A stretch of 64,000 nt of DNA from Gemmatimonadota bacterium (GTDB lineage: Bacteria > Gemmatimonadota > Gemmatimonadetes > Gemmatimonadales > Gemmatimonadaceae), in the NCBI GenBank assembly GCA_028287235.1, contig JAQBQB010000028.1, positions 248,001 to 312,000 on the forward strand, in the 5' to 3' direction. A program made the translations under genes and the position numbers. Under the pieces are notes generated by a model. The model was not told where the DNA came from, did no database searches, and worked only from the letters and a program-made list of their open reading frames with translations. Each line of letters begins with the position of its first letter. The first letter of the stretch is position 1. This document shows, one piece after another, positions 57,691 through 63,490 of this stretch.

Positions 57691-58265
57691 GCGGGCGTTG
57701 GAAGTCCAAAGTGCTCGACGATGCGCTCCGCCACATGATCAGCCGACAGCGCGCTGTTCTCGAGGCGCAGATAGTCTGCACGTCCGTCGAACCGCCCCGC
57801 CGAGTTGAGCTGGTACGCGAGGTCGTCGGCGAGTAGCCGCGCTCTCGATGCACCGAGGTCGCGCTTGGACGGTTTCTCAGCCAAACGAAACTCCGTCTCG
57901 TTGCGCCGCAACCGCTCGTCTTGCGTGGCCTCCAGCTCGACGAAGCACACCCGCCCGCCGCGAGCGCGGAAGATCTCCGCGAGCTCCTCCACGAACGCGT
58001 CGTCGGATTCTCGATCGAACGCCCACACGTACGTGAAGATGAGGCCCGGCAGCTCGCTCGATGCAACCTCCTCGAAGATGCGGCGGCGAAATTCTCGATT
58101 GAGCCTGGCGAAGGGAGGGCTGCCGAACGGGAAGAAGCGAAGAATGAGGTCGATCGTATGATGATTGTGAAACAGCCGCAGATCGGTGCGGCGCGCCAGC
58201 GCGGTGCCGACGGTCATCTTGCCGACCGCCGGCGGGCCGACGATGAACACGAGCGTCGGCGTCAT
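57687..58265 (-). CDS. P-loop nucleoside or small-molecule kinase (AAA_33-like)
   Basis: 192 residues from ATG 58265, overlapping the GNAT stop by 4 bases. Walker A is VGPPAVGKMTVG near the N terminus, followed by LRLFHNHHTIDLI and LIFTYVWAFDRES. This pattern matches shikimate- or chloramphenicol-phosphotransferase-like kinases; the exact substrate is unknown. A lid region with RRNETEFRLAEKPSKRD supports the kinase fold. It is probably co-transcribed with the acetyltransferase. Its stop and that of the hypothetical protein at 57690 overlap within CTAG. Confidence 0.85.
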   Translation of the reverse strand: MTPTLVFIVGPPAVGKMTVGTALARRTDLRLFHNHHTIDLILRFFPFGSPPFARLNREFRRRIFEEVASSELPGLIFTYVWAFDRESDDAFVEELAEIFRARGGRVCFVELEATQDERLRRNETEFRLAEKPSKRDLGASRARLLADDLAYQLNSAGRFDGRADYLRLENSALSADHVAERIVEHFGLPTPA

Positions 58266-58795
58266 GCGGGAGCTTCCGTGAGCGTCTTGTACCACAGCAG
58301 TTGCACCTCGTCGGGAAACTCCGGGTAGGCGCCGATAGCGGCTCGCTCGAGCGCGAAGCCGTGACGCTGGTAGAACCGGCAGGCGCCCGCGTTCACGTCC
58401 TGCGTCTCGACTTTCAACGTCCGCGCGCCGCGACGGCGCATCGCGCTCTCGACCGCGGCAAGGAGCGCAGCTCCGACGCCTTGGGCTCGCACGTCAGGCG
58501 ACACGCGGATGTCCCAGAGCAGCGCGAGATCGTCGCGCCCGTCGAGCATGTCGAAGTCGTTCGATCGGAAGATCGCGACCGCGCCGCCGATGCAGCGTCC
58601 GTGAGCCCGCGCCGTGAAGAAGACCCAGTCCGAAACGTCGAAGCGCGTGGGCCAGTCCAGGGGGCCGTTCCCGGGGATCGCGTCGTAGTCCTTGGTCGTG
58701 GAAACGCCAGAGCTCACGGGCATCTCGAACGCGATCGGCACGCGCGCGTAGTCGGTGAGCACGGATGCTCCCTCTTCAGCAATCTCAAAGCGCAT
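58262..58795 (-). CDS. GNAT family N-acetyltransferase
   Basis: 177 residues. The acetyl-CoA motif is IRVSPDVRAQGVGAALL (RAQGVG, about residues 103-108), preceded by a beta-strand LALLWDI, and the C-terminal part has VETQDVNAGACRFYQRHGFAL (split VETQDVNAGA, CRFYQRHGFAL), typical of GNAT. The substrate is not known. It is followed by the P-loop kinase in a 4-base overlap. Pairing of an acetyltransferase with a small-molecule kinase is reminiscent of antibiotic-modifying enzyme pairs, but that is only a comparison. It is divergent from the third PadR gene. Confidence 0.92.
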   Translation of the reverse strand: MRFEIAEEGASVLTDYARVPIAFEMPVSSGVSTTKDYDAIPGNGPLDWPTRFDVSDWVFFTARAHGRCIGGAVAIFRSNDFDMLDGRDDLALLWDIRVSPDVRAQGVGAALLAAVESAMRRRGARTLKVETQDVNAGACRFYQRHGFALERAAIGAYPEFPDEVQLLWYKTLTEAPA

Positions 58796-58944
58796 TGATT
58801 CCGACGAGCAGCGGCGCCGGCGCGTCGTAGAATTCTTTCGTCATTCTCGTCGCGAAGCTGGGCCGTCGCCGCCGCGTCGTCAATTCCACCAGCGGCCGGC
58901 GAACCCTTTCGAAACTCCCGCTGTCGTATCCTCGTACTTGCTCC

Positions 58945-58992
58945 TATCGCCAACCGATACGTCGCTCCACCTTCTCCTATCGACATCCGATA
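58945..58992 (+). promoter_or_regulatory. Twin dyad operator of the third PadR-ADOP unit
   Basis: Two perfect inverted repeats TATCG-N5-CGATA: 58945-58959 (spacer CCAAC) and 58978-58992 (spacer ACATC), centres 33 bases apart, about three helical turns on one DNA face. Each is embedded in a CTCCTATCG context, so they are also direct repeats of about 20 bases. They end 8 bases before the PadR start at 59001 and include part of its ribosome site (AGAGGA). A binding site for the PadR protein itself is the natural reading. Confidence 0.65.
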
Positions 58993-59000
58993 GAGGACCC

Positions 59001-59333
59001 GTGCCGCCAGCCCAGACCAACCTGCTCCAAGGAACGCTCGATCTCCTTATCCTGAAAGCACTTGCCTTGGGCGAGCTGCACGGGTTGGGAGTGTCTAGAC
59101 GAATCGAGCAGATCACCCGCGGCACCTTCGACGTCGGCCCGGGATCGCTCTTCCCTGCCCTCCACCGCCTCGAGGCGGCGGCGCGGCTGGCGTCCCGCTG
59201 GGGCCCCTCGGAGAACAACCGGCGCGCCAAGTATTACACGCTCACCGCCGCCGGCCGGCGACAGCTCGACGTGGAAACGGGAAACTGGAAGCACATCGCC
59301 ATCGCCATCAGCTACGCACTCGAGGCCACCTGA
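59001..59333 (+). CDS. PadR family transcriptional regulator
   Basis: 110 residues from GTG 59001 with AGAGGA eight bases upstream. PadR domain: LLQGTLDLLILKALALGELHG (split LLQGTLDLLILKAL, ALGELHG), FDVGPGSLFPALHRLE, NNRRAKYYTLTAAGRRQL, and a C-terminal helix. It acts as a dimer on the upstream DNA. The stop is one base before the ADOP start. The two dyads immediately upstream are probably its own operator, so the regulator and permease would be autorepressed. Confidence 0.95.
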   Translation: MPPAQTNLLQGTLDLLILKALALGELHGLGVSRRIEQITRGTFDVGPGSLFPALHRLEAAARLASRWGPSENNRRAKYYTLTAAGRRQLDVETGNWKHIAIAISYALEAT

Positions 59334-59334
59334 C

Positions 59335-62007
59335 ATGTCCGTCTTCTCGCACTTCCGCACCTCCGTGCGCAACGTCGCCGGCCGCGCCACCGTCGAGCGC
59401 GAGCTCGACGACGAGCTGCGCAGCTATCTCGACCTGCTCATCGCCGAGAAGGTCAAAGCGGGCGCGTCGCCCGACGAGGCGCGACGCGCGGCACTGCTCA
59501 AGGTGGGCGGCATCGAGCGCGTGAAGGACCAGGTGCGCGACGAGCGCCCCGGCATGATGTTCGAGAGCGCGGGGCGCGATCTGAAGCACGGCCTGCGGCT
59601 GCTGCGCCGGTCGCCGGGCTTCGCCGCCATCGCCATCGTCACGATCGCGCTCGGCATCGGCGCCACGAGCGCGATCTTCAGCGTCATCAACGCCGTGGCG
59701 CTCAAGCCGCTGCCCTATCCCAATTCCGACCGGCTGGTCTTTCTCACCAGTCAGTTCCCCACGCTCGGCTTCGACAAGTTCTGGATCTCGCCGCCGGAGT
59801 ATCTCGAGCTGCGCGAGCGGTCGAAGTCGTACACCGACGTCGCGGCCTATCGTATCACGGCCGTGAACGTGAGCGACGGAACGCGCCCCGAGCGCGTCAA
59901 CGCCGTCGCGGTCACGGCCAACATGTTCAACGTGCTCGGCGTGCAGCCGCGGCTCGGTCGCGCGTTCACGGCCGAGCAAGATCTTCCGACCTCGGAGCCC
60001 GTCGTCATCCTGTCCGACAACTTGTGGAAGCGCGCGTTCGGCGGTGAGAGCTCGATCATCGGCAAGCAGGTCGAGGTTCAGGGACGAAAGCGCACGGTGA
60101 TCGGTGTCGCGGCGCCCGGCTTCGACCTGCACGATGCGGCCGCCGACGTCTGGCTCCCGATGGGACTCGACCCGGCCAACCGGCAGAATCGCGGATCACA
60201 CTATTTGTATCTCGTCGCACGGCTGAAGCCGAGCGTGACGCGCGGACAGGCGGAGTCGGAGCTGCTGTCGCTCATACGGCAATGGGGCACGATCAATCCC
60301 GGCACGCACACGCCGAACGACTCGACGCACCGGCTGCAGCTCGCGCCGCTGCGCGACGAGGTGATCGGCAACGTTGCCAAAGCGCTGTGGATCCTGCAGG
60401 GCGCCGTGCTGCTCGTGCTGATGATCGCGTGCGCGAACGTCGCGAACCTGTTGCTCGTGCGCGCCGAAGGACGGCACAAGGAGTTCGCGATTCGCACCGC
60501 GCTCGGCGCGGGACGCGGGCGCATTCTGCGGCAGTTCATGGCGGAAGGACTCGTGTTGACCACCGTCGGAGCGGCGCTCGGGTTGTTGCTCGCGCACTGG
60601 GGGCTCGCCGCGCTGCTGTTGGCGAATCCGCAGAGCATTCCGCGCTCGGCGGAGATCGCGATCGACCCGCGCGTGCTGCTGTTCACGTTTGTCGTCGCGA
60701 TTCTGACGGCGAACATCTTCGGCTTGGCACCGCTGCTCCATCTCGGACAGAGCGCCGTGGCCGCGGCGATCAAGGAGGGCGGTGCGCGCACCACGGCGAA
60801 CGCGACGCGCAACCGCGTGCGCCGCGGACTCGTCGCGGCCGAGATTGCGCTGGCCGTGATGCTCGTGGTGGGCGCGGGGTTGTTGTTGCGGAGCTTCCAC
60901 AATCTCACGGCGGTGGACGCGGGCTTCGACGCGCGCAACGTCGTGACGTTCGGCGTCTTCCTGCCGCAGGCGACGTATCCGCAGGCCGATCGTCGCGCGC
61001 AGTTCGAGGACGAGCTCGCGCGCAAGCTGCGGGCGATACCCGGCGTGCAGGATGTGGCGGCCATGACGGGCCTGCCGCCCAACCGCCAGGTGAACGCGAA
61101 CGACACCGAATTCGAGAACGTGCCGATGGGTCCGGGACTCCCGGCCGCGAACGTCGACTACTACAACACCACGAGCGTGCGCTACTTCGAGGCGATGAAG
61201 ATTCCCATCCTCAAGGGGCGGGGCTTCACGCCGGGCGACGTCGGCGGCGCGGGCGTGGCCGTGGTCAACGACGCCCTGGCGAAGCGCTTCTACCCGAACA
61301 CCGACCCGATCGGCCGGCGCATTCGCTCGTCGGGGCCGGCGAACGCGCCCTGGTTCACGATCGTGGGCGTGGCGAAGGACGTGAAGCAAGGTGGGCTCGA
61401 TCAGAAGGTCGGCACGGAGCTCTACTTCAACATCGAGCAGGGTCCGCACGTCAACGGCTTCGCGCCGAACGCATTGAACTTCGTCGTGCGCTCCGCGCGG
61501 CCGGCCGACGCGCTCGCGCCGGCGATCCAGAGCGCGGTGCGCTCGATGGACCCCGGCCTGCCTGTGGTACAGCTTCGCTCGATGGAGTCGGTGTTCGGCG
61601 ACTCGGTGAGCCGCCAGCGATTCCTTTCGCTGCTGCTCGGCATCTTCGCCGGCGTCGCGCTGTTGTTGGCGATGATCGGAACGTACGGCGTGTTGTCGTA
61701 CCTCGTCACCGAGCGGCGGCGCGAGATCGGCATTCGCGTCGCACTCGGCGCGAGCGCGGCGGGAATCGCGCGGCTCGTGCTGCGGCAGGGGCTCACGATC
61801 ACGGTGGCCGGGATCGCGCTCGGGCTCGTGGGCGCGCTGACGCTGGCGCGCGTGACGCAGTCGCTACTCTTCGGCGTGTCGCCGACCGACCCGCTCACCT
61901 ACTTCGCGGTGGGCGGGGTGATCCTCGCAGTGGCGCTCATCGCGTGCATGGTGCCCGCGCAGCGAGCGATGCGGGTGGATCCGCTGGTGGCGATTCGGAA
62001 CGAGTGA
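59335..62007 (+). CDS. ADOP family (MacB/FtsX-like) permease
   Basis: 890 residues from ATG 59335, one base after the PadR stop. N-terminal ADOP domain (ELDDELRSYLDLLIAEK, VGGIERVKDQVRDERPG), TM1 (AIVTIALGIGATSAIFSV), two periplasmic MacB-type domains, three central TMs (including LQGAVLLVLMIACANVANLLL, split after 18) plus one before the second periplasmic domain, and the C-terminal FtsX-like set with RREIGIRVALGAS. It differs strongly from the copies at 260 and 47864, so the three are old paralogues. No ATPase is encoded nearby. Confidence 0.94.
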   Translation: MSVFSHFRTSVRNVAGRATVERELDDELRSYLDLLIAEKVKAGASPDEARRAALLKVGGIERVKDQVRDERPGMMFESAGRDLKHGLRLLRRSPGFAAIAIVTIALGIGATSAIFSVINAVALKPLPYPNSDRLVFLTSQFPTLGFDKFWISPPEYLELRERSKSYTDVAAYRITAVNVSDGTRPERVNAVAVTANMFNVLGVQPRLGRAFTAEQDLPTSEPVVILSDNLWKRAFGGESSIIGKQVEVQGRKRTVIGVAAPGFDLHDAAADVWLPMGLDPANRQNRGSHYLYLVARLKPSVTRGQAESELLSLIRQWGTINPGTHTPNDSTHRLQLAPLRDEVIGNVAKALWILQGAVLLVLMIACANVANLLLVRAEGRHKEFAIRTALGAGRGRILRQFMAEGLVLTTVGAALGLLLAHWGLAALLLANPQSIPRSAEIAIDPRVLLFTFVVAILTANIFGLAPLLHLGQSAVAAAIKEGGARTTANATRNRVRRGLVAAEIALAVMLVVGAGLLLRSFHNLTAVDAGFDARNVVTFGVFLPQATYPQADRRAQFEDELARKLRAIPGVQDVAAMTGLPPNRQVNANDTEFENVPMGPGLPAANVDYYNTTSVRYFEAMKIPILKGRGFTPGDVGGAGVAVVNDALAKRFYPNTDPIGRRIRSSGPANAPWFTIVGVAKDVKQGGLDQKVGTELYFNIEQGPHVNGFAPNALNFVVRSARPADALAPAIQSAVRSMDPGLPVVQLRSMESVFGDSVSRQRFLSLLLGIFAGVALLLAMIGTYGVLSYLVTERRREIGIRVALGASAAGIARLVLRQGLTITVAGIALGLVGALTLARVTQSLLFGVSPTDPLTYFAVGGVILAVALIACMVPAQRAMRVDPLVAIRNE

Positions 62008-63315: not shown

Positions 63316-63466
63316 ATCCTTCGCTTCGCTCAGGATGACATCGGCTTCGCTCGGGATGACATCGGCTTCGCTCGGGATGACATCCGCTTCGCTCGGGATG
63401 ACATCCGCTTCGCTCAGGATGACATCGGCTTCGCTCAGGATGACATGGGGCTTCGCTCGGGATGAC
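63316..63466 (+). repeat. Array of 21-bp tandem repeats (GGCTTCGCTCRGGATGACATC)
   Basis: About seven units with a 21-base period (one of 22): ATCCTTCGCTTCGCTCAGGATGAC starts the run (shown in part), then units of the form ATCSGCTTCGCTCRGGATGAC end at 63360, 63381, 63402, 63423, 63444 and 63466. The unit is the right arm of the dispersed repeat at 35340-35707, amplified on its own. It fills most of the 295-base gap between the membrane protein and TetR genes. There are no spacers, so it is not a CRISPR. Confidence 0.85.
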
Positions 63467-63490
63467 ATGCGGCGCCGCTCACGCTAGAAT
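63462..63490 (+). promoter_or_regulatory. Candidate TetR promoter with -35 supplied by the repeat array
   Basis: ATGACA (63462-63467), at the end of the last repeat unit, and TAGAAT (63485-63490) are separated by exactly 17 bases. TSS would be near 63497, 17 nt before ATG 63514. Confidence 0.5.

Follow-up and report, generated by a model that had tools for sequence, protein, structure and literature searches.

A putative operator pair in front of the padR-ADOP unit

The two inverted repeats (O1 and O2, Table 1) in front of the padR-ADOP unit of the 64,000-nucleotide stretch of Gemmatimonadota DNA analysed here (the window) very probably form the operator pair of the adjacent PadR, by which this repressor would autorepress its own gene together with that of the permease. 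The evidence seen directly is the sequence and position of the dyads, their conservation, their class-specific co-variation with the repressor and their presence before orphan ADOP genes.

Table 1. Coordinates of the genes, dyads and promoter positions at the padR-ADOP locus of the window
Feature	Position	Strand	Remarks
GNAT acetyltransferase gene	58262-58795	divergent	upstream of the dyads and padR
Candidate ECF-like promoter GAACCC-N16-GTCGTA	58901..58928	+	upstream of both dyads; similar in L046
O1, upstream dyad TATCGCCAACCGATA	58945..58959	.	exact TATCG-N5-CGATA; left flank CTCC at 58941-58944
-35 position of orthologous promoters	58947..58952	+	TTGACA in orthologues; TCGCCA in the window
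-10 position of orthologues (TANNNT, 17 bp after -35)	58970..58975	+	CCTTCT in the window
O2, downstream dyad TATCGACATCCGATA	58978..58992	.	exact TATCG-N5-CGATA; left flank CTCC at 58974-58977
Probable Shine-Dalgarno sequence AGAGGA	58992..58997	+	adjoins the right end of O2
PadR repressor gene	59001..59333	+	GTG start; 110 aa; PF03551, TIGR03433, predicted fold, PDB matches
ADOP-family duplicated permease gene	59335..62007	+	TIGR03434; MacB_PCD + FtsX

The repressor matches PF03551 in the profile search (E=4e-18; 65.5 bits against a cut-off of 27) and belongs to the NCBIfam family TIGR03433 padR_acidobact (122 bits, cut-off 101.8). Its predicted fold (pLDDT 89.5), with helices at residues 10-21, 28-38 and 47-59, strands at 63-69 and 75-81 and a last helix at 83-108, is, as modelled, that of a winged helix-turn-helix protein with a C-terminal dimerisation helix; the top PDB matches are PadR/LmrR, and residues 47-59 (PGSLFPALHRLEA) make up the predicted recognition helix. 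The ADOP gene is co-directional with padR and its ATG lies 1 bp past the padR stop; the product belongs to TIGR03434 (945 bits, cut-off 622) and contains two MacB_PCD and two FtsX stretches, i.e., is a duplicated permease. Both families are defined on protein sequence only. The genome of the window (G000, 5.73 Mb) has 67 ADOP and 41 PadR matches. Farther along, an intergenic part of the window (63324-63468) carries a short tandem array of units of about 20 bp (GGATGACATCGGCTTCGCTC).

The first-pass annotation had reported two exact dyads 33 bp apart at the PadR ribosome site, and the window sequence bears this out: the dyads stand 33 bp apart from start to start with 18 bp in between, and 8 bp separate the end of O2 from the GTG codon. 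Both belong to a longer direct repeat, CTCCTATCG-N5-CGATA, in which three of the five spacer bases agree. The window contains no exact TATCG-N5-CGATA besides O1 and O2, and the rest of the genome has a single one (L001), which we rejected as a regulatory target, as it lies within a coding frame and is devoid of the GA..TC core. Base composition predicts 0.016 single dyads per 64 kb and about 1.5 per genome, which could speak for a chance origin of the repeats; a pair within 50 bp is, however, expected only about 2e-5 times per genome, and the pair is conserved across phyla. A fortuitous coincidence of two inverted repeats is thus of negligible probability, its refutation being already provided by conservation in the sequences compared.

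The exact pair was found in three of 395 Gemmatimonadota genomes, the reversed control pattern giving 0 matches. The three places are the window locus, its congeneric orthologue (83% identical, likewise with a spacing of 33 bp) and the promoter of an unrelated PadR (L077, G194:C1:4086614-4086658). The last of these, whose two exact dyads are 30 bp apart, belongs to a PadR that is 31% identical and has no ADOP; its dyads possibly reflect convergence on the same operator, and it was kept out of the counts.

Conservation in orthologous promoters

Orthologues of the PadR gene were collected from 98 relatives, from the 395 genomes of the phylum and by a scan of named genomes, which gave 100 non-redundant orthologous promoters from Gemmatimonadota, Acidobacteriota, Verrucomicrobiota and others (phylum as stated in the sequence records). 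Each was scored for two copies of TATNG-N5-CNATA (maximum 16), and a pair was called at 14/16 or above. By this measure a matching pair is present in 77 of the 100 promoters, usually with a spacing of 32-36 bp, and at the same threshold none occurred among 2000 Markov shuffles, 2599 control windows of real DNA taken from these loci or 111 PadR promoters belonging to other subfamilies. Thinning at 80% protein identity leaves 41 promoters, of which 29 have the pair. In about a quarter of the orthologues this score reveals no clear pair, and several among them retain one dyad. An ADOP gene lies within 300 bp downstream of PadR in 91/100 cases. Granulicella aggregans has the pair at two loci (L137, L138). 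The recurrence of the pair before orthologous PadR-ADOP units, which had been proposed as a check on the operator assignment with absence of the dyads as its refutation, was thus found in several phyla.

We define the class-A ADOP-PadR operator as two TATNG-N5-CNATA dyads, 26-40 bp apart, adjoining the start of a PadR of the PGSLF class; the window pair (16/16, spacing 33) falls within this definition. In the nearest orthologue (L046, 83% identical; also L078, from a Gemmatimonadaceae metagenome assembly) the dyads are TATCGACAACCGATA and TATCGACACTCGATA with a spacing of 33 bp, and, counted by eye, 20/20 arm bases agree with the window and 12/18 of those between the dyads.

Promoter anatomy and proposed mechanism

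In the orthologues the consensus of O1 is CTCCTATTGACATTC(G/T)ATAGGA, which encloses the -35 box TTGACA, and that of O2 is TCCTAT(A/C)GANNNTC(G/T)ATAGGAG, which covers the start region and whose right flank is the Shine-Dalgarno sequence AGGAG; a weak -10 (TANNNT) follows the -35 box at 17 bp in the alignment. The family core is therefore TATNG-N5-CNATA with CTCC/GGAG flanks, broader than the TATCG-N5-CGATA first put forward as the operator motif, which holds for the window copy but not for the family, where O1 is mostly TATTG owing to the enclosed TTGACA. Centring the dyad on the last A of TTGACA gives 6.0/9 complementary pairs in the orthologues, versus 1.3-3.2 at other centres, and the same centre gives 4.5 versus 1.9-3.0 in 81 paralogues with a TTGACA-like box. 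Since the -35 box demands T at position 3, an O1 that contains TTGACA cannot be perfectly symmetric. This T is replaced by C in the window, as it is in the nearest orthologue (TCGACA in the -35 slot), and therefore O1 became a perfect dyad and the -35 box was lost, which accounts for both the clean look of the window dyads and their departure from the family consensus. In O2, arm positions 3 and 11 co-vary (Fisher p=0.02).

As most orthologues have O1 around the -35 box and O2 touching the Shine-Dalgarno sequence, the dyads might be supposed to act in RNA, as hairpins of the 5' UTR, or to be relics of promoter elements (TTGACA/AGGAG) rather than protein sites. We regard this as highly improbable. 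O1 lies upstream of the transcription start in promoters of the TTGACA type and hence cannot act in RNA; the -35 box accounts for TTGACA only, not for the strongly conserved, PadR-class-specific mirrored right arm; and the window keeps the dyad although its -35 box is lost.

From the operator assignment we infer binding, repression, release by a signal and the promoter of the window copy, as follows. A PadR dimer would sit on each dyad, each subunit placing its recognition helix on one arm, and the bound dimers would repress transcription of padR-ADOP, that is, act by autorepression, until a signal releases them. In the ancestral layout, O1 has its centre at the final A of the -35 box, so that a dimer bound there would block RNA polymerase, while O2 would extend over the start region into the Shine-Dalgarno sequence. 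In the window copy, because the -35 box within O1 has decayed, the dyads probably lie just downstream of another promoter, perhaps of the ECF type, and would block at or after initiation. The decay of the canonical promoter makes both expression and repression of this copy uncertain.

No sigma-70-type promoter was found at 58800-59060. The AAC...GTC-type arrangement of the upstream candidate (Table 1) is known for ECF sigma factors, and L046 has the same arrangement (GAACCC-N16-GTCTAC). A motif of this type (AAC-N17..18-GTC) is present in 15/70 PadR promoters without TTGACA, compared with 1.2% of shuffles, the pattern having been picked after inspection of the sequences and some matches taking in dyad arms. 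This is no more than a hint that some PadR units lacking TTGACA use an ECF sigma factor. AACC-N16..18-GTC recurs upstream of TTGACA-less PadR genes in the window and at L046, L056, L177, L180, L035 and L249.

As to the earlier proposal of cooperative binding by two PadR dimers, one each on O1 and O2, about three helical turns apart and in phase, it is compatible with the operator assignment, and we hold it tentatively, with doubt prevailing. The spacing peaks at 33-34 bp, 86% of the values fall within 31-36 bp, and the LmrR operator is occupied by two dimers of the protein (PMC5428041). However, the spacings (30-39 bp; mean 34.0, s.d. 1.9) form a single smooth peak whose helical-turn coherence is about what a Gaussian gives (R 0.56 vs 0.52), and some orthologues have a spacing of 26 bp or a single dyad. 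The distance from the -35 box to the start region would set the spacing anyway, so that promoter geometry explains it equally well.

ADOP genes without an adjoining PadR

Some ADOP genes likewise have this dyad pair in front of them with no PadR in between, both in the genome of the window (L269, C15:124880) and in other genomes (L295, G024:C38; L279, G076:C1). The ADOP of L269 matches the profile with 460 bits over half of the gene, the full match being L300. A search for the pair across the order (288 genomes) returned 12 places, namely nine PadR-ADOP units, two PadR-less ADOPs and a site close to the end of a contig, and 0 control matches. Such ADOP genes are probably under the control of this PadR class as well. 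Another PadR-less ADOP of the window's genome (L308, G000:C12, 244607-247009, minus strand) is preceded by the pair TGTTGCGTTCCGACA / TGTCGGTATCCTACA, 32 bp apart, which is of the TGTYG type found with a different PadR class; judging by these sites, it is a probable second target in trans.

Several places were not counted: L272 and L273 in congeneric genomes, where single sites precede a YceI-like gene or lie inside a gatC-like gene, and L282, where the pair is close to a contig end and no ADOP follows. Three tandem dyads (TATAGACCGTCTATA, TATAGCGTGTCTATA and TAGAGACAGTCTATA) stand before another PadR-ADOP unit (L275, G003:C36:101002).

Recognition-helix classes and their half-sites

In these genomes the PadR paralogues, too, are preceded by dyads at this place, but with different sequences. 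We grouped them by the residues with which the predicted recognition helix begins, i.e., in the region of the PadR alpha-3 motif EGTLYPxLxRLE (PMC3506622), and compared the right arm, which is free of the -35 box. The right arms are CTCCTATAG for KP-GSLF, CTCCTGTCG for NQ-GSLY, NTCCCATAG for EE-G-LY, CTCTCCTAG for QQ-G-LY and TTCATCTTG for NP-GSLL; the corresponding half-sites are CTCCTATNG (KP-SLF), CTCCTGTCG (NQ-SLY), CCCAT/CCCCT (EE-LY), CTCTCCTNG (QQ-LY) and CATCTTG (NP-SLL). In a leave-one-out test, the helix class was correctly predicted from the right arm alone in 82% of 155 cases versus 20% with shuffled labels, a figure that is descriptive and not a probability, as the classes were named after inspection and the sequences are related. 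Attribution of the dyads to PadR, as made in the first-pass annotation, is supported for the pair that recurs before orthologous units, but in this form it is limited to one recognition-helix class, the other ADOP-linked classes having different sites. Over the 34 PadR-ADOP units of the window's genome, at least 7/9 complementary base pairs were seen in 50%, against a background of 19%; generic dyad strength is only moderately above background, and a recognisable pair is not claimed for each unit. PadRs of the PQGSLY class (L069, L072, L192, L256) have long mirrored sites (CCCCTTGCACTTCTACAGG ... CCTGTAGAAGCGCAAGGGG) and not two short dyads.

These data bear on whether the main ligand of the dyads is some other protein, such as a global regulator or the further PadR of this class at C23:474955. 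The genome does encode a PadR that is 69% identical, shares the recognition helix and has a dyad of this type at its own promoter. The pair, however, tracks the PadR class of the window through several phyla, immediately upstream of its gene, and PadRs of other classes in these genomes come with dyads of their own, in keeping with self-recognition; regulation by the paralogue would, moreover, supplement autoregulation rather than replace it. We therefore consider a different main ligand unlikely. The closest paralogue itself (L274, G000:C23:474919-475275) has one dyad of the same class and is followed by a subtilase-like gene, not by an ADOP; from the shared site type, its cross-regulation with the window PadR is possible.

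With about even confidence, we propose that the dozens of ADOP-linked PadR paralogues per genome are insulated repressors, which share an operator layout (one dyad centred on the -35 box and another at the start), differ in half-sites according to residues at and near the beginning of alpha-3 and act in trans, class by class, on PadR-less ADOPs. If true, such a set would amount to a natural protein-DNA recognition code, readable across phyla.

Comparison with known PadR operators

LmrR and PadR-s1 recognise ATGT-N8..10-ACAT (PMC3506622, PMC5428041). As in these systems, where the promoter is autoregulated, both dyads of the window are located at the promoter of a transporter-linked PadR; LmrR, as is proposed for the PadR here, reaches the -35/-10 region and binds as two dimers; and the outer triplets have nearly the same spacing (TNT-N9-ANA, in the window TAT-N9-ATA). 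This geometry is the only common feature of the sites, since the canonical box is absent from the window, whose half-sites are CTATCG/CGATA(C/G), and the class-A half-site is CTCCTATNG instead of ATGT. Unlike LmrR/PadR-s1, class A has two complete dyads that stand apart by 30-39 bp, with O1 centred on the -35 box, and the half-site of ADOP-linked PadRs shifts with the recognition-helix class. As for small PadRs of subfamily 2 (bcPadR1/bcPadR2), one common operator was suggested for the whole subfamily (PMC3506622); ADOP-linked PadRs, in contrast, show at least five half-site types, and on these sequences the group does not fit one shared small-PadR operator; the correspondence of alpha-3 class with half-site, too, argues against it.

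Gemmatimonadota and Acidobacteriota have many ADOP permeases that are paired with a PadR. In the open-access literature searched we found no account of how these are regulated, nor of the operator of ADOP-linked PadRs (weak evidence of absence). A defined operator allows regulon predictions, PadR-less ADOPs included, and provides a system for studying how paralogous repressors stay apart, while the link of alpha-3 class to half-site opens PadR specificity to direct tests. As to the signal, the conserved tryptophan in the final helix (W96) is invariant among the PadRs compared and is probably the counterpart of W96 in LmrR, which binds drugs; the equivalent tryptophan is buried in other small PadRs (PMC3506622).
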